Part shown: one piece after another, positions 26,420 to 62,184 of the stretch | Numbering within the stretch: the first letter of the stretch is position 1 | How the letters are laid out: each line of letters starts with the position of its first letter | Assembly (NCBI RefSeq): GCF_018603885.1 | Contig: NZ_JAHGAW010000011.1 | Coordinates: 124,001 to 188,000, forward strand | Reading direction: 5' to 3' | Source of the DNA: Sphingobium nicotianae | Lineage (GTDB): Bacteria > Pseudomonadota > Alphaproteobacteria > Sphingomonadales > Sphingomonadaceae | DNA: 64,000 nucleotides | Position numbers and translations under genes: made by a program | Notes under the pieces: generated by a model | Seen by the model: the letters and a program-made list of their open reading frames with translations, nothing else | Database searches by the model: none | What the model was told of the DNA's origin: nothing

Positions 26420-28183
26420 ATGAGCATCCAGACGGCATCTGCAATCGTTCAACGCCTCGGCCCGTGCAGGATCGCGCTGGACCGCAGCCTTTTCGCGGAT
26501 TTCGCGAACGAACTGGCCCTGCTCGGCTGCGATCCGATCGACCTGCCGCGGCCGGGCGCCAAACGCCGACCCGGCAAGACCATCGGCTTCCTCGACTGGC
26601 CCGGCGCCGAGATCGGCAAGCCCTTCGCCCAGGCCCTGCGTGCCTATGCCGGCATGGACGCGCTCGTCCTCCAGTCAGCCGGCCAGCAGCGCCACGCGCT
26701 CGAGCAGGCGCTGTTCGATGCCGGCTGGCAGCGGCACCCCGCAGGCATGATGCTGCATGAATTCGGCGGCTGGTCGGCCTATTTCCTGCCCGGTCTCACT
26801 TATTATTCCCGCGCAGTGCAGGGCCGCCCCGGGGCGCTGCGCAGCAGCGGCGGCGAGGCCGACGCGCTGATCGCCCGCTATGCCATGGCCGCCACTCATG
26901 CCCGCCCCGGCGATCATCTGCTCGTCGATAGTGCCGGATCCGCTGATGGCGCCTCTATCCTCGCCGCCCTCTCTCGCGCGGGATCGGTCAGCCGGACCGG
27001 AGAGGATCGCGCTGGGATCAAGCCCGATCTTGCCTCCGTTGCCGACAACAGCGTCGACATGATCGTCGCCATCGAGCCCATCATTCCCGGCGACTGGACG
27101 CGGCGACTCGCCGACTATGCGCGCATCCTCAAATGCGATGGCCGCATCATCCTGGGCTGGCGCCGCAGCGACGGAAGCAATGCCCGGCCGGGCGACTGGG
27201 CGACGCTGGTCGAGGCGGCCTCCGCATATTTCCTGCCCGAGTCGCGCCAGCTTCTTGGTCCGACCAGCGCCGATCTCGGTGGCCCGCAAGTAATTCAGTC
27301 GGCTCCCTTCGATCAGGATGTGGACCTCGACTGGATGATCCTCATCGCGTCGGCCAACCCGCTCGCGGGCGAAGGGCGTGGCGCGGACTATGACCACCCC
27401 GCCTTCCCCAAGACCGATGGTCCCTGGCCGGCGCTGGTCGATTTCGGCGCGGCCTATGATAATCCCTACCTCTATCGCGCCATGGTGCAGATGGGCGAGC
27501 GGCTGAGCCATGACGTCACGCTGGCGCGCCTCGCCGAATGCGTGATCGAGGATGCACGGCCGGATTCGGCTGATCGCGGCGCGGCGCTGGCCGTGCTGGG
27601 CTATCGCGTCCTGGAGATGCGCCTGCCCGATCTCGCCGCGCCGGTTCTGCCGGTCATCGCCGCTTATGCGCAGCAGCCGCTCGACGATGCGCCACCACAT
27701 GTGCGCCGCTGGGCGATCTCGCTCGCCTTCCTTGCCGGGCGCCTGGCGGAGCTGACTGGCGACCGCGCCGCCGCGCGGGACTGGTATCACCGGGCCGCGC
27801 TGGCGCAGTGGGAAGATTTCTCGCCGCTCCTCGCGACCAAGGCGATCGCCGCTTCATTTTACGAAGCACGCCTCTCCCTCGCCGATGGGGACGCGGCGGC
27901 AGCGCGCGCCTGCTTCCAGCGGGGCCTCGATACGGCGCTGAGCGCGGCGGCTTTTCCGCACGCGCAGCAGATCGGCCCGGCCGAGCATCCGCTCTCCTTC
28001 TACATGACCGAACTCGCCGAGGTCATCGACATGGGGTCGCAATGCGCCAATGCGCTCACCCACTTCCATCTGTGGGCGCGCGATCCGGGCCTGTTCTGGC
28101 GCCAGGTCGATGTCCGGCGCTTCGGCCTCGCCTCCTGGGCGCGCGATCTGGAGCGCGAGAATGACCGCCTGCGCGCAGCGTGA
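26420..28183 (+). CDS. Uncharacterised protein with degenerate class I methyltransferase region and helical repeats
   Basis: 587 residues, no confident family. Residues about 160-250 resemble a Rossmann methyltransferase (PGDHLLVDSAGSADGASIL, then DNSVDMIVAIEPI and ARILKCDGRIILGW), but the Gly-rich SAM loop is degraded. The part from about 350 onward is helical and TPR-like, with Ala-rich repeats (ALAVLGYRVLEMRLPD, AARDWYHRAALAQWED), and the protein ends in a short coiled coil (LERENDRLRAA). GGGGAGACGA precedes the ATG. Next to the FkbM fusion and kdsD/kdsA, a role in surface-glycan modification is the best guess; the direct function is unknown. Confidence 0.7.
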   Translation: MSIQTASAIVQRLGPCRIALDRSLFADFANELALLGCDPIDLPRPGAKRRPGKTIGFLDWPGAEIGKPFAQALRAYAGMDALVLQSAGQQRHALEQALFDAGWQRHPAGMMLHEFGGWSAYFLPGLTYYSRAVQGRPGALRSSGGEADALIARYAMAATHARPGDHLLVDSAGSADGASILAALSRAGSVSRTGEDRAGIKPDLASVADNSVDMIVAIEPIIPGDWTRRLADYARILKCDGRIILGWRRSDGSNARPGDWATLVEAASAYFLPESRQLLGPTSADLGGPQVIQSAPFDQDVDLDWMILIASANPLAGEGRGADYDHPAFPKTDGPWPALVDFGAAYDNPYLYRAMVQMGERLSHDVTLARLAECVIEDARPDSADRGAALAVLGYRVLEMRLPDLAAPVLPVIAAYAQQPLDDAPPHVRRWAISLAFLAGRLAELTGDRAAARDWYHRAALAQWEDFSPLLATKAIAASFYEARLSLADGDAAAARACFQRGLDTALSAAAFPHAQQIGPAEHPLSFYMTELAEVIDMGSQCANALTHFHLWARDPGLFWRQVDVRRFGLASWARDLERENDRLRAA

Positions 28184-28300
28184 GGCGCCCCTTTCAGCGC
28201 ACGTCATTAACCAAGCGATAACCATGTCCCGCTACGCCCTCTTCAGTTTCGGGATCGCGCGCCATCGGCCCATCACCGGCTGCGTTTGAGGAGACACACG

Positions 28301-30454
28301 ATGAACATCATGGCCCATCGCCTGGAAGCCGGGCAGTTCCATACGATCGAAGCCAAGGGTCACCTCATCCACTATGACAACAATGCCGCAGGATGGCGCT
28401 ATGCGACCCTCCTCGACAAGGAACCCGAGACGATCGAGTGGATCGACAGCTTCGAGCCGGGCGATACTTTGTGGGATATCGGCGCCAATGTCGGCATCTA
28501 CAGCGTCTATGCCGGCGTAAAGGGTATCCGTACGCTGGCCTTCGAACCGCACTTCGCCAATTATCAGCAACTGTGCTGCTCGATCGCGCTCAACGGGCTG
28601 CAGGATCTGGTGACGCCGCTATGCCTGGCGTTCGACAATCGCAAATCGATCGGCGAGCTGAATCTGGCCAGTCTCGACGTTGGGACGTCGATGAGCAATT
28701 TTGGCGCCGCTCTGGATTTCCGCGGTCAGCCGTTCGTTCCGGCCTTCCGCCAGGGCATGATCGGCTATGATATCGACAGCTTCATCGCCGATTTCGGACT
28801 GGCGATTCCGACTCACCTCAAGATCGACGTCGATGGCATCGAACTGGCGATCGTGCAGGGCGCGCAGGCGCTCCTGGCCAACGAGACGTTACAGTCCGTC
28901 TCGATCGAGCTCATCGAAAGCGACCTCGATCAGGTTGCGAGCGTGACCGCACTCCTTGAAGGCGCCGGGCTCCAGTTCGTCCACAAGAAGCAGAATGCCC
29001 ATTTTGCGACGCCCCAGACCGCCGATGTGAAAAATTTCCTGTTTCATCGCGATCCTGCCAAGCTGCTGCGCGCCACGACGCCGGGTGCCGACGCCGGCCC
29101 CGATGAGGATGACGAGGCGCTGGTGACGGTCGACCAGATCGTCGAGCGGATCGTCAGCCGGATCGAGGCAGCGCCTGTCGACGGCGACCCGTGCGATCAT
29201 CTCGTCATGGAGGGCCTGTTCGCGTCGAATGTCTATCGCGAGCTTCTCGCGCGCCTGCCCCAGGATAGTGCGCTTGAGCCGATCGCGCATCCTGATGCGG
29301 TCGACAGCGACGGTCGCGTCACGCGCTACCTTCTCGATCTGACGCGCAATTCGCTCGCGCGGCTCGATCCTGACGATCAGCAATTCTGGCAGGCAATGAT
29401 CGAGGTCTTCACCGCGCCCGCCATCGCGCGCGCCGTTGTCGCCAAGTTTGAAGACAAGCTGCGCGATCGTTTCGGCGACGACATGCCTGAGCTGATCGCC
29501 GTTCCCCTGCTCTATCGCGATTTCCCGGGTTATCGTATCGGCATTCATCCCGATGCGGCGAGCAAGGTCGCCACGCTGCAATTCTATCTGCCGGCGGACG
29601 AGACGCAGGCGCATCTGGGGACCGTATTCCACCGCAAGGGCGCAGCGGGCTTTGAACGCGTGAAGACCAACAACTTCCACCCCAACAGCGCCTATGCCTT
29701 TGTGCGGACGGAAGAGAGCTGGCACAGCGTCGATGAAATCGGCCCGCACGAGGCGCCCCGCAATACGATCGCCCTCACCTTCTACATCAAGGGGCAGGAA
29801 TATAGGTCGGCGCCCATGGCGGACATGAACTCGATCGCGCCCCAACCGGCCGCGGTTGCCCCGACCCCATCCCACATCCTCAACGACGTCTACGATGCGT
29901 CGATGAGCGAGGCGCTGCGCGTCCTCGCCGCCACCTTCACGCGCCGCGACGATGTCGCCACCCTGTTCCTAGAGGGCGGCACGGGCGTCGAGCTGGGCGT
30001 TGCCGGGGGCGACTTTTCCGAACGCATCCTCAAGCGCTCGAAGGTCGGCTATCTTTACAGCATCGACATGTGGGCCGGCGATCGCGGCCATGACATGGAT
30101 CAGTATCGCGAGACCATCGTGCGCCTGGCGCCCTATCGCGACCGCAACGCCATCTGGCGGATGCGCTTCGAGGATGCGCTGCCGCTCTTCGCCGACCATT
30201 CGCTCGATTATGTCTATGTCGATGGCTATGCCCATGACGGCGAGCTCAACGGCGCGACCTTCCGCGACTGGTTCCCCAAGCTGAAGCGGGGCGGCTTCAT
30301 CGCGGGGGACGACTACCACGCCGATTGGCCGCTGGTAGTCGCAGCCGTCGACAGGTTCGCGGCCGATGTCGGGCTGGAGCTCCACGTGATCAGGTGCGGC
30401 GAGGTCGATACCTGGAATTCCAAATATCCGACCTGGTTCGCGATGAAGCCCTGA
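28301..30454 (+). CDS. Three-domain FkbM methyltransferase / 2OG-Fe(II) oxygenase-like / class I methyltransferase fusion
   Basis: 717-residue protein with three apparent catalytic domains. (1) FkbM-type SAM methyltransferase, about 20-255: WDIGANVGIYSVYA (58-71) and KIDVDGIELAIVQGA (174-188). (2) About 280-500, a 2OG-Fe(II) oxygenase-like fold: His416-x-Asp418 (GYRIGIHPD), distal His475 (SWHSVDEI), Arg487 twelve residues later, as expected for iron and 2-oxoglutarate binding. (3) About 525-717, class I methyltransferase: GVELGVAGGDFSE (562-574), YSIDMW, YVYVDGYAHDGE. The ATG at 28301 follows GAGGAG. The domain order suggests consecutive methylation and hydroxylation of one substrate, probably a sugar or lipid-linked glycan. 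No function is proven. Confidence 0.8.
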   Translation: MNIMAHRLEAGQFHTIEAKGHLIHYDNNAAGWRYATLLDKEPETIEWIDSFEPGDTLWDIGANVGIYSVYAGVKGIRTLAFEPHFANYQQLCCSIALNGLQDLVTPLCLAFDNRKSIGELNLASLDVGTSMSNFGAALDFRGQPFVPAFRQGMIGYDIDSFIADFGLAIPTHLKIDVDGIELAIVQGAQALLANETLQSVSIELIESDLDQVASVTALLEGAGLQFVHKKQNAHFATPQTADVKNFLFHRDPAKLLRATTPGADAGPDEDDEALVTVDQIVERIVSRIEAAPVDGDPCDHLVMEGLFASNVYRELLARLPQDSALEPIAHPDAVDSDGRVTRYLLDLTRNSLARLDPDDQQFWQAMIEVFTAPAIARAVVAKFEDKLRDRFGDDMPELIAVPLLYRDFPGYRIGIHPDAASKVATLQFYLPADETQAHLGTVFHRKGAAGFERVKTNNFHPNSAYAFVRTEESWHSVDEIGPHEAPRNTIALTFYIKGQEYRSAPMADMNSIAPQPAAVAPTPSHILNDVYDASMSEALRVLAATFTRRDDVATLFLEGGTGVELGVAGGDFSERILKRSKVGYLYSIDMWAGDRGHDMDQYRETIVRLAPYRDRNAIWRMRFEDALPLFADHSLDYVYVDGYAHDGELNGATFRDWFPKLKRGGFIAGDDYHADWPLVVAAVDRFAADVGLELHVIRCGEVDTWNSKYPTWFAMKP

Positions 30455-30469
30455 CCGGAGCCGCGATCC

Positions 30470-31489
30470 ATGTTTTATGACATCAAGCAACGTCTCGCTC
30501 TCCGGAGCAACCTCACCGCCGAGCAGATGCTTGCGCACGGCCGCTCGGTGCTTGCCATAGAGGCGAGTGCCCTCACCCAGCTTGGCGACCAGCTGGACGA
30601 ATCCTTTCCGCAGGCGATCGAGCTGCTGCTGGCGACCAGCGGCCGCGTGATCGTCAGCGGCATGGGCAAATCCGGGCATGTCGCCCGCAAGATGGCGGCG
30701 ACCTTCTCGTCGACCGGCCTCCCCGCCTTCTTCGTCCATCCCGGCGAGGCCGCGCACGGCGATCTTGGCATGATCACGCCGGGGGACGTGCTGGTCGCGC
30801 TTTCCAATTCCGGTGCGACAAGCGAGTTGCAACCGATCATGCGGCATGCGCGTCTTCTTGACTGCCCGGTGATCGGCATCACATCGCAGCGGGGCTCGCC
30901 GATGGGCCAGATCGCCACCGTCTGCCTGACCCTGCCACGGGTCCGCGAGGCATGCCCTGCGAACATCTCGCCGACCACCACGACAACCCTGATGCTCGCG
31001 CTGGGCGACGCCCTTGCCGTCACCGTTATGCACGCCCACGGCATCTCCCGCACCCAGCTCGAACTGCTGCATCCGGGCGGATCGATCGGCTCGCGCTTGC
31101 TGCCGGTCGACAAGATGATGCACGAGGGCGCCGAGCTTCCGCTCGTGTCGGCCGACGCGCCAATGCAGGATGTGCTGGTTATAATGACCGAGAAAAGCTT
31201 CGGCATCGCCGGCGTGATCGACGCGGCCGGGCGTCTGATCGGCACGATCACGGACGGCGACCTACGCCGCAAGATCGACGGTTTGCTTGCGCGCAGCGCG
31301 GGCGACGTCATGACCGCGAGCCCCAAGACCATCCCAGGCGGAACCTATGCCGAGGACGCCTTCGCGATCATGACCATCAATCGGATCACGGCCCTGTTCG
31401 TCATGGATGCCGATGCGCCGGAGAGGCCCATCGGCCTGCTCCACATCCACGATCTCAATCGTCTCGGCATGACGCCGGCCCAGCAATGA
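30470..31489 (+). CDS. kdsD: D-arabinose-5-phosphate isomerase (KdsD/KpsF/GutQ family)
   Basis: 339 residues: a SIS sugar-isomerase domain ([32 protein letters not shown]) followed by two CBS domains (near 215-335). It converts ribulose-5-phosphate to arabinose-5-phosphate, the first step to Kdo. It begins 15 bases after the trimodular gene and overlaps kdsA by ATGA. KpsF copies of this family often belong to capsule clusters. Confidence 0.92.
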
Positions 31490-32349
31490 GCTATGGCGCG
31501 CGCATGACAGAAACCCACCCGGACTATCGCACCGTCACGATCGGCCAGATCGAGGTGGCCAATGACCGGCCCCTGGCGCTGATCGCCGGCCCCTGCGCCA
31601 TGCAATCGCGCGCGCATGCGCTGGAGACGGCGCAGGCGCTGGTCGAGATGACCGCGGCGATCGGCATGCCGTTGATCTACAAGTCTTCTTTTGACAAAGC
31701 CAACCGCACGTCGGCCAACGCGCCGCGCGGTATCGGCCTCGCTAAGGCACTCGACATCTTCGCCGAGGTCAAGGAGCGCTTCGGCTGCCCGGTGATCACC
31801 GACGTACATGAAAACGGCCACTGCGCCCCGGTCGCCGAAGTTGTCGACGTCCTCCAGATTCCGGCTTTCCTTTGCCGCCAGACCGATCTCCTGCTTGCGG
31901 CGGCCGCGACCGGCCGCGCCATCAACGTCAAGAAGGGGCAGTTCCTCGCACCGTGGGACATGGCCAATGTTGCCGCGAAGGTCCGTAGCACCGGCAATGA
32001 CAGGATCCTGCTCACCGAACGCGGGGCGAGCTTCGGCTATAACACGCTGGTGAGCGACATGCGTGCCCTTCCCATTCTGGCCGAGACTGGTTGCCCGATC
32101 GTCTTCGACGCGACCCACAGCGTACAGCAGCCCGGCGGCCAGGGTACCAGCTCAGGCGGCGAGCGCCGCTTCGTTCCGGTGCTGGCCCGCGCGGCCGTTG
32201 CAATCGGCGTCGCGGCCGTCTTTATCGAGACGCATGAAGACCCGGACAATGCCCCGAGCGACGGGCCCAATATGGTGCCCCTCGACGAGCTACCAGCCCT
32301 TCTTGCCGACCTGCAGGCATTTGATGCGCTGGCCAAGCGCATCGGCTGA
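31486..32349 (+). CDS. kdsA: 3-deoxy-8-phosphooctulonate (Kdo-8-P) synthase
   Basis: 287-residue KdsA condensing arabinose-5-phosphate with phosphoenolpyruvate. Signatures: [47 protein letters not shown]. The ATGA overlap with kdsD supports the start at 31486; an ATG at 31504 is a possible alternative. It converges on parB with only 15 bases between stops and no visible terminator. Confidence 0.94.
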
Positions 32350-60686: not shown

Positions 60687-60762
60687 GCCGCTTTAGCTCA
60701 GCCGGTAGAGCATCGCATTCGTAATGCGAGGGTCAGGTGTTCGAGTCACCTAAGCGGCACCA
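60687..60762 (+). tRNA. tRNA-Thr (anticodon CGT)
   Basis: 76 bases with encoded CCA. The acceptor stem GCCGCTT/AAGCGGC, a TCGCATT-CGT-AATGCGA anticodon arm and a T arm AGGTG-TTCGAGT-CACCT all pair. It lies beside an integrase, whose family commonly uses tRNA 3' ends as attachment sites. Confidence 0.97.
60731..60762 (+). other. Probable attachment site (att) at tRNA-Thr 3' end
   Basis: The 3' half of the tRNA gene, next to the integrase, is the likely attB/attL core. No second copy of this segment is visible further right in the window, so the other junction should lie beyond 64000. Confidence 0.5.
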
Positions 60763-60948
60763 TTTCTCCGTTCGCACGCGTTCGTGAGCGTCTTTACATC
60801 TCCGAAAACTGCGATATTCATCGGCGCGCAGATCATGCGAGTTCGCATGAGTTCGTCTGCCTTCGGTGAAAATCGGGGGTATTTTCTGGGGTAGGATAGC
60901 GCGCCGCGGTCTAACTACCCCCAGATACTCCATTGTGAAGGGCTTCAA

Positions 60949-62184
60949 GTGGCGCTGACCGACGTCCAGATTCGCAACGCCAAGCCTCGTGATAAGGCGT
61001 ACAAGTTATCGGATGCCGGAGGACTGCATCTTTTCGTATCGCCCGCGGGCGGGAAACTGTGGCGTTTTAAGTTCCGCATAGCTGGAAGGGAGAAGCTGCT
61101 CTCGTTAGGCGGCTGGCCTACCGTGAGCCTGGCCGCTGCTCGCAAGGCGCGAGATAGAGCGAAGGCTCAACTTATCGCCGGCGACGATCCTGCCCATGAG
61201 AAGCGGAAAGAGAAAATCGCCCGCCAGGTCAGCGCTGGAAACAGTTTTCGGTCGGTTGCAGAGGACTGCATAGCGGTGAAGCTCGAAGCGAACCGCAAGG
61301 CCGATGCGACGGTTGGAAAGGCGCGTTGGTTTCTTTCCCACCTCACGCCAGCGCTGGGATCGCGCCCTATTTCGGAAATCGAACCTGCCGAGGTGCTTGC
61401 CGTATTGAAAGCTCTAGAGCGGAAGGGACATCGTGAAACGGCGCGGCGAACGCGTGCCTTCGCCAGCAGGGTTTTCCGTCATGGCGTTGCGAACACGTTC
61501 TGCAGAAGCGATCCGGCCGCACTGCTTGCTGACGCTCTCTCGCAGCCCATCGTGAAGCACCATGCTGCGATCCTGGATCCGACTGAGTTGGGCATCTTTC
61601 TGCGATCGATCGACGAGTATGGAGGTGGCGCAACGGTGAAGCTGGCCATGCAACTCTCTCCACATCTGTTTCTGCGACCCGGAGAGCTGCGCCAAGGCCG
61701 GTGGGAGGAGGTGGACCTGGCCGACGCGATCTGGACAGTGCCTGCTGTCCGTACAAAACTCCGTCGGCCTCACAGTGTGCCCCTCTCGCGTCAAGCCCGG
61801 GCATTGCTCGCTGAGTTACGGCTGGTCAGCGGTGGCCATGACCTGATGTTCCCAGGCTTGCGGTCCCACCTACGTCCTACGAGCGAAAATGCCTTGAACG
61901 CGGCGTTCCGTCGTATGGGTTTCGGCGCGGATGTCGTGACAGCACATGGACTTCGAGCAACGGCATCTACCTTGTTGAATGAAAGTGGAAAGTGGCATGC
62001 TGATGCGATCGAGCGGGCGCTTGCTCACGGCCGCAGTGACGCAGTGCGCGGTGCGTATGCGCGCGGACAGCATTGGGCCGAGCGCGTCGAGATGGCGCAG
62101 TGGTGGAGCGATTACCTCGACGCGTTGCGTGACGGCGTCCAGATCGTGCCGTTTCCGGCGCAGGATGCCGCGGTCGCTTCATGA
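60949..62184 (+). CDS. Tyrosine integrase (P4-like, DUF4102/phage integrase)
   Basis: 411-residue site-specific recombinase. N-terminal DUF4102-type arm domain (LTDVQIRNAKPRDKAYKL, DAGGLHLFVSPAGGKLWRF), core-binding helices, then the catalytic domain with Arg in LRPGELRQGRW, HGLRATAS (HxxR), a histidine in LAHGRSDAVRGAY and the terminal Tyr in that stretch. It starts at GTG 60949 after AAGGG. Oriented away from tRNA-Thr, as in genomic islands. ATGA overlap with a 32-codon ORF. Confidence 0.93.
   Translation: MALTDVQIRNAKPRDKAYKLSDAGGLHLFVSPAGGKLWRFKFRIAGREKLLSLGGWPTVSLAAARKARDRAKAQLIAGDDPAHEKRKEKIARQVSAGNSFRSVAEDCIAVKLEANRKADATVGKARWFLSHLTPALGSRPISEIEPAEVLAVLKALERKGHRETARRTRAFASRVFRHGVANTFCRSDPAALLADALSQPIVKHHAAILDPTELGIFLRSIDEYGGGATVKLAMQLSPHLFLRPGELRQGRWEEVDLADAIWTVPAVRTKLRRPHSVPLSRQARALLAELRLVSGGHDLMFPGLRSHLRPTSENALNAAFRRMGFGADVVTAHGLRATASTLLNESGKWHADAIERALAHGRSDAVRGAYARGQHWAERVEMAQWWSDYLDALRDGVQIVPFPAQDAAVAS

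Follow-up and report, generated by a model that had tools for sequence, protein, structure and literature searches.

A single gene in the 64,000-nucleotide stretch of Sphingobium nicotianae analyzed here (contig NZ_JAHGAW010000011.1, positions 124,001 to 188,000 of the forward strand; referred to as the window) encodes a protein that joins an FkbM methyltransferase domain, a predicted 2-oxoglutarate (2OG)/Fe(II) oxygenase domain and a second methyltransferase domain of the Methyltransf_24 family, and this fused three-domain form is both real and rare. It is proposed, with a confidence that falls just short of even, that the fusion tailors an ulosonic acid of eight or nine carbons, most probably 3-deoxy-D-manno-octulosonic acid (Kdo) or a derivative thereof, which decorates flagellin. 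The gene forms one open frame on the + strand from the ATG at 28301 to the stop codon at 30454 (717 amino acids; window coordinates), with the following features:

28301..30454, + strand: fusion protein FkbM methyltransferase - 2OG/Fe(II) oxygenase - Methyltransf_24, defined by a single open reading frame, family matches and fused homologues
28288..28293, + strand: likely ribosome-binding site GAGGAG, read in the sequence 5' of the ATG
28358..29086, + strand: FkbM methyltransferase domain, residues about 20-262
29114..29815, + strand: predicted 2OG/Fe(II) oxygenase domain, residues 272-505
29546..29554, + strand: HxD iron-binding motif, H416 and D418
29723..29725, + strand: distal iron ligand H475
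29759..29761, + strand: R487, predicted 2-oxoglutarate-binding arginine
29873..30451, + strand: Methyltransf_24 domain, residues about 525-717, with the PF13578 match at residues 563-672

Both outer domains are recognized by family models. The FkbM domain exceeds the cut-offs of TIGR01444 (61.4 bits versus 37.7) and of Methyltransf_21 (PF05050; 35.9 bits versus 22.7), and O-methyl transfer dependent on S-adenosylmethionine (SAM) is its predicted activity, while the C-terminal domain matches Methyltransf_24 (PF13578) at 45.5 bits versus a cut-off of 26.3 and retains its motifs in the window copy. The middle domain matches zero Pfam models at E <= 1, and its assignment draws on structure prediction and residue conservation. 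An AlphaFold model of residues 272-505 reached a predicted local distance difference test score (pLDDT) of 93.4 and a predicted template modelling score (pTM) of 0.90, and Foldseek placed PolD and PasI at the top of 550 PDB matches at E <= 0.001. Fold comparison gave the highest scores to PolD (9blq; Z 20.2, root-mean-square deviation (rmsd) 2.6, 192 residues) and PasI (9ei6 and 9ei7; Z 19.6, rmsd 3.1, 202 residues), followed by OGFOD1 (Z 17.5, rmsd 3.0, 192 residues; OGFOD1 and Tpa1 together span Z 17.5 to 16.2) and PHD2 (Z 15.5, rmsd 3.3, 191 residues). PolD is also the best solved relative by sequence (E 6e-5 for the single domain, 1.3e-6 for the profile), with PasI second in the profile search (E 0.077). 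Residues H416, D418, H475 and R487, the last of which is presumed to bind 2-oxoglutarate by analogy with the oxygenase superfamily, are invariant in 15/15 aligned oxygenase domains with identities down to 19%. Because the predicted fold and the conserved residues agree, the middle domain is predicted to be a double-stranded beta-helix 2OG/Fe(II) oxygenase. The Kdo 3-hydroxylase KdoO, itself a 2OG/Fe(II) enzyme, appeared neither among the best 50 entries of the fold comparison nor as one of the two profile-search sequences, and a relationship between them may still exist. The AlphaFold model of the full-length protein was too poor (pLDDT 69.4, pTM 0.39, from an alignment of 8 rows) for conclusions on the packing of the three domains, and its FkbM part was left unused. 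The original prediction for this gene, made from the letters of the window and their open reading frames, had described an FkbM methyltransferase, an oxygenase-like domain and a second methyltransferase in this order, an architecture which the family matches and the predicted fold bear out; it had placed the HxD motif at 416/418, the distal histidine at 475 and the arginine at 487, all of which proved exact, and the beta-helix fold it expected for the middle domain is indeed the one predicted.

The distribution of the protein was surveyed in a family sample of 298 genomes (source genome included), in a class sample of 385 genomes and in the GTDB contig collection, the scan of the latter being non-exhaustive because its seeds were six short peptides taken from the fusion; counts throughout are uncorrected for kinship. 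Of the 298 family genomes, 3 (the source genome, G114 and G289) have a full-length fusion, and another 2 (G257 and G076) have just the C-terminal domain, at 76-80% identity. The contig collection holds at least 53 loci encoding a relative of the fusion, among which there are seven full fusions (L031-L037), seven loci in which FkbM and the oxygenase are separate genes (L038, L039, L040, L041, L053, L078 and L080), L058 with a pair reduced to broken remnants, and 38 loci that match through the FkbM part alone. Two of the seven fusions carry other taxonomic labels (L032 betaproteobacterium, L033 Burkholderiales), the remainder being from sphingomonads, with L031 from Sphingomonas sp. Root710. The fusion was found in 10 genomes in all, and since the same fusion was recovered in each of them it reflects neither chance nor an assembly artefact.

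In other loci, FkbM and the oxygenase are encoded by two neighboring genes whose order varies (FkbM-oxygenase in L038, L053 and L080; oxygenase-FkbM in L039, L040, L041 and L078, as well as in the remnants at L058) and once there are three genes, since a third separate gene in L038, incomplete at the edge of the contig, is similar to the C-terminal domain of the fusion (33% over 46 amino acids, E 6e-8); this arrangement suggests that the parts work together, and on such sequence evidence FkbM and oxygenase form one functional set. The separate set in L038 is preceded by FabH-, FabG-, PglD- and Rieske-oxygenase-like genes. In a tree of the FkbM part L038 falls on a long branch inside the group of fusions (support 96/93), and at least two changes of fused state are forced by the starred branches, the number of fusions and splits being unsettled. 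The three-gene state of L038 had been considered as ancestral, a view that was dropped given its position among the fusions, where it may represent a fusion that has since split or an artefact of the tree.

Not all parts of the protein are retained to the same extent. The SAM-binding and YVDGYAHDG motifs of the third domain have decayed in L035, L036 and L037, i.e. in 3 of the 8 fusions aligned (L002 and L003, from the ten, were left out), so that this domain is dispensable. Among genomes with the C-terminal domain alone, the leader and roughly the first 19 codons of the fusion gene survive in G257, in frame with that domain (leader and start DNA compared with L031: score 158, reached by 0/300 shuffles), while G076 keeps the linker of the fusion (0/1000 shuffles). 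The FkbM-oxygenase part evidently comes and goes between close relatives. The G257 gene (L087:6914-7570) looks like an in-frame deletion of the FkbM-oxygenase part or, alternatively, like the state that preceded its insertion.

The genomic surroundings point to an acidic sugar. The operon order is upstream gene (here called MTTPR) - fusion - kdsD - kdsA, in which the other genes are:

26420..28183, + strand: MTTPR, upstream operon gene, diverged and methyltransferase/TPR (tetratricopeptide repeat)-like, with an L039 homologue that matches Methyltransf_11
30470..31489, + strand: kdsD, arabinose-5-phosphate isomerase of the KpsF/GutQ family (TIGR00393)
31504..32349, + strand: kdsA, Kdo-8-phosphate synthase (TIGR01362, 404.9 bits versus a cut-off of 314)

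The kdsD product scores 263 bits with TIGR00393 (cut-off 203.7) and 291.7 with the stricter KdsD model, which is below its cut-off of 505. The linkage is conserved, as kdsD lies directly 3' of the fusion in 5 of the 10 fused loci (the window, L031, L034, L084 and L085), and kdsA follows the fusion and kdsD in the window alone. MTTPR or a homologue is present on 7 of the 10 fused loci (the window, L031, L032, L034, L035, L084 and L085) and also on L039, L040 and L058, and in genomes G174 and G220 it is followed directly by kdsD without the fusion. Its Phenylobacterium homologue (L039) matches Methyltransf_11 over the cut-off and TPR below it; in the window copy no Pfam model scores over its cut-off, and no Pfam methyltransferase family is matched by the copies in L031 and L116. 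An active methyltransferase role for MTTPR was given up on these grounds, and the protein may be catalytically dead.

Ulosonic-acid genes are found in the fetched flanks of 26/38 FkbM-only loci (FkbM identity 29-48%), a count that stands without matched control loci and includes three matches at locus ends and a few below 35% identity. These comprise NeuB/PseI-like (pseudaminate-synthase-like) genes in 7 loci, PseF/NeuA-like genes in 9 and KdsB-like genes in 17. Five of the 26 loci supplied ulosonic-acid queries, and leaving those out gives 21/33; one NeuB-like (L047) and one NeuA-like (L042) query were named by eye and the other representatives by family search, the PseF-like one scoring below its model cut-off. 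These neighborhoods point to an ulosonic acid as the putative substrate of the FkbM domain.

The connection with flagellin comes from a second protein, encoded elsewhere in the genome. This 800-residue protein (C4:119959-122343 in the source genome; L097:8957-11344) combines, by sequence, a haloacid dehalogenase (HAD) phosphatase with a phosphoribosyltransferase-like half, as in the PRP-gPRT enzymes, and is here called the HAD partner. It is present in 10/10 fusion genomes (the G302 copy being split over two frames) and in 14/18 genomes with a fusion, a separate pair or remnants, being absent from G305, G309, G311 and G312; otherwise it is uncommon (33/298 family genomes, 4/385 genomes of the class sample). 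All 8 of the 298 family genomes with MTTPR carry both the HAD partner and kdsA, and the HAD partner shares a locus with the fusion, the pair or remnants in L032, L035, L039, L040 and L058. In profile comparison it matches Bcs3, the capsule polymerase of Haemophilus influenzae type b (E 4.5e-22), and 7shg, a ribofuranosyl transferase (E 9.7e-18, in two stretches, one per half). Enzymes of the PRP-gPRT/Bcs3 type are described to transfer ribofuranose-5-phosphate from phosphoribosyl pyrophosphate (PRPP) and then to remove the phosphate (PMC11127046, PMC10299916). Given this homology, the HAD partner probably adds a pentofuranose, and by itself it is a candidate for a new family of flagellin glycosyltransferases. 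The L032 contig, from a metagenome bin with the betaproteobacterium label, carries the fusion, the HAD partner and the upstream-gene homologue together, which may indicate transfer of a cassette or a mis-binned contig.

Flagellin genes are present in 33/33 family genomes with the HAD partner versus 166/265 others (Fisher p 7.5e-7), and in 19 of those 33 the HAD partner lies <= 5 kb from a Flagellin_N gene, where 0.28 would be expected at random placement. Several individual loci illustrate this proximity (neighbor names given without a family search, e.g. flgD, flhA, flgK and the integrase mentioned at the end, were assigned by eye). A Methyltransf_24 gene separates the HAD partner from flagellin in L112 and L113. 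Locus L115 (genome G182) carries a pair of methyltransferase-like genes, of which the second scores below cut-off, then kdsA, kdsD and an MTTPR homologue, and on the opposite strand the HAD partner, two successive flagellin genes and then flagellar-looking genes. The FkbM-oxygenase pair itself lies 1.3 kb from flagellin in the SAR116 genome of L053, and L058 has remnants of the pair, an MTTPR homologue and the HAD partner all between flgL and flagellin. In L058 (6001-6823) the oxygenase lacks its first part and FkbM its middle, so this pair serves as evidence of position alone; the reading frames of the upstream-gene homologue and of the HAD partner are open there. A 964-amino-acid protein adjoining flagellin in L053 (L053:10496-13390) has a NanM-like sugar O-methyltransferase match over the cut-off and TPR-type matches.

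A possible pathway can be outlined from these elements. KdsD and KdsA, the products of the next two operon genes, would make the Kdo skeleton, the FkbM domain would O-methylate the sugar and the PolD/PasI-like domain would hydroxylate it with Fe(II), O2 and 2-oxoglutarate, after which the C-terminal methyltransferase, where intact, could add a second methyl group. The HAD partner would probably put a pentofuranose, perhaps ribofuranose, on the same glycan, which would then be placed on flagellin, and the fusion may serve to keep the activities at equal amounts and to hand on the intermediate. Capsules of E. coli are known to include polymers composed of ribofuranose and Kdo. A sugar substrate is also favored by PasI, among the nearest solved relatives of the oxygenase, having been solved with octosyl-acid phosphate.

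Several observations weigh against flagellin as the target. No flagellin gene was found in the flanks of any fused locus (0/10), compared with 2 of the 8 loci with a separate or broken pair (L053 and L058) and 1 of the 38 FkbM-only loci (L057); hence the fusion itself does not lie in or beside a flagellin locus, as genes of flagellin islands do, and it is relatives of its parts that do so in L053, L058 and L115. The fusion (C3), the HAD partner (C4) and two flagellins (C20 and C24) are on different contigs of the source genome, and the fusion and flagellin are about 2.0 Mb (G114) and 2.9 Mb (G289) apart on the same contig. The HAD partner is > 5 kb from flagellin in G000, G076, G114, G257 and G289, that is, in five genomes with the fusion or the C-terminal domain among the 14 in which it is far from flagellin. 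Flagellin occurs in 17/18 genomes with a fusion, pair or remnants, but with a family base rate of 199/298 this co-occurrence is no proof by itself. MTTPR is restricted to 3 genera of the family sample, and the surroundings of L038 and L041 look non-flagellar. Finally, kdsA, present in 80/298 family genomes, occurs in 4 of the 20 flagellin-negative genomes listed and is missing from 17/33 HAD-partner genomes (16/33 have it; Fisher p 0.004), so that an exclusive tie to Kdo was rejected.

The absence of flagellin near all ten fused loci speaks for a different target, namely a Kdo-containing capsule or another surface polysaccharide. Taken together with the scattered contigs, the high base rate of flagellin and the presence of kdsA in genomes devoid of it, this makes such a glycan a serious contender, considered possible at a probability well below even. 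The Kdo genes directly adjoin the fusion, and Bcs3, a homologue of the HAD partner, makes capsule. The decoration of flagellin, on the other hand, accounts for the short distance between HAD partner and flagellin in 19/33 genomes, for the kdsA-kdsD-MTTPR-HAD partner-flagellin cluster of L115, and for the pair beside flagellin in L053 and its remnants between flgL and flagellin in L058. Methylation and hydroxylation could also be directed at flagellin or another protein itself instead of a sugar, since structures of the prolyl-hydroxylase type (OGFOD1, PHD2) match the oxygenase model too, and flagellin lysine methylation by FliB is known. We regard this as unlikely, as PolD and PasI are the closest structural matches, the FkbM relatives are near ulosonic-acid genes and a protein target would leave the kds genes without a role. 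A similarly low, indeed slightly lower, probability is given to a tailoring enzyme for a small molecule or peptide. FkbM methyltransferases and 2OG oxygenases do occur in natural-product clusters, PolD and PasI belong to a nucleoside-antibiotic context (in the case of PolD to a Streptomyces pathway, which was counted in favor of this option), and the protein weakly resembles the YhhC peptide oxygenase model, below its cut-off (E 0.059). That similarity amounts to 13 bits against a cut-off of 150, the neighbors are kds and housekeeping genes, and no synthase or precursor gene was recognized by eye in the gene list of the window.

With regard to known systems, FkbM methyltransferases have been described in flagellin glycosylation islands of Enterobacteriaceae (PMC4875605) and Geobacillus (PMC5109656) as likely methylases of flagellin glycans. 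The present enzyme shares the FkbM family with them; the island enzymes are described there without a fused oxygenase, whereas ours is fused and lies outside the flagellar locus, and the strings oxygenase, hydroxylase, hydroxylat and 2OG are absent from the main texts of both papers. PolD and PasI represent the closest solved fold, with detectable sequence similarity in the case of PolD, but they are separate proteins with 16-20% identity to the oxygenase domain and do not belong to a kds operon. Similarly, the HAD partner is homologous in both halves to PRP-gPRT ribofuranosyltransferases and to Bcs3 CrpP-CriT (PMC11127046, PMC10299916), which act on polysaccharides, while 19/33 of the homologues considered here are close to flagellin. 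Kdo on flagellin has a precedent in a study of Maf flagellin glycosyltransferases that accept this sugar, although it served there as a stand-in donor in engineered E. coli (PMC11339370). Searches of the open-licence literature found, among the matches listed, no description of a three-part fusion of FkbM, 2OG oxygenase and methyltransferase and none of the PolD enzyme structure; no ribofuranosyltransferase tied to flagellin was found there as judged by title, and no sphingomonad flagellin-Kdo system in the titles and abstract starts of the matches listed. FkbM enzymes in flagellin islands and the oxygenase fold were known already. The original prediction, which knew of no described system with this domain order, is uncontradicted in this respect by the open-licence matches listed; the parts, found as neighboring separate genes elsewhere, form a functional set, and its probable glycan substrate fits kdsD, kdsA, the ulosonic-acid genes near relatives and the ribofuranosyltransferase-like partner. 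Successive action of all three activities on a single molecule, as it had envisaged, is not supported, and a fixed order of methylation, hydroxylation and methylation is not required given the decayed third domains and the two close relatives without the FkbM-oxygenase part, so that its interpretation as a whole is partly supported.

A wider and more doubtful proposal would unite these elements into a flagellin glycosylation system of sphingomonads and other proteobacteria, in which a PRPP-dependent ribofuranosyltransferase with its own phosphatase would act together with Kdo supplied by kdsD-kdsA, the trifunctional enzyme would methylate, hydroxylate and methylate, and the FkbM-oxygenase module would be gained and lost. 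Flagellin glycans can influence motility, phage attachment and host recognition. Sphingomonads have been reported to be without ordinary lipopolysaccharide, and the proposal, if true, would give them a reason to keep Kdo genes. It would also name a candidate new family of flagellin glycosyltransferases and allow the methylation and hydroxylation of an acidic sugar to be studied jointly in one enzyme.

At some distance from this operon, the window contains a tRNA-Thr followed by a tyrosine-integrase-like gene (60687-62184, the latter at 60949-62184 and named by eye), which probably mark an integrated element at a tRNA.

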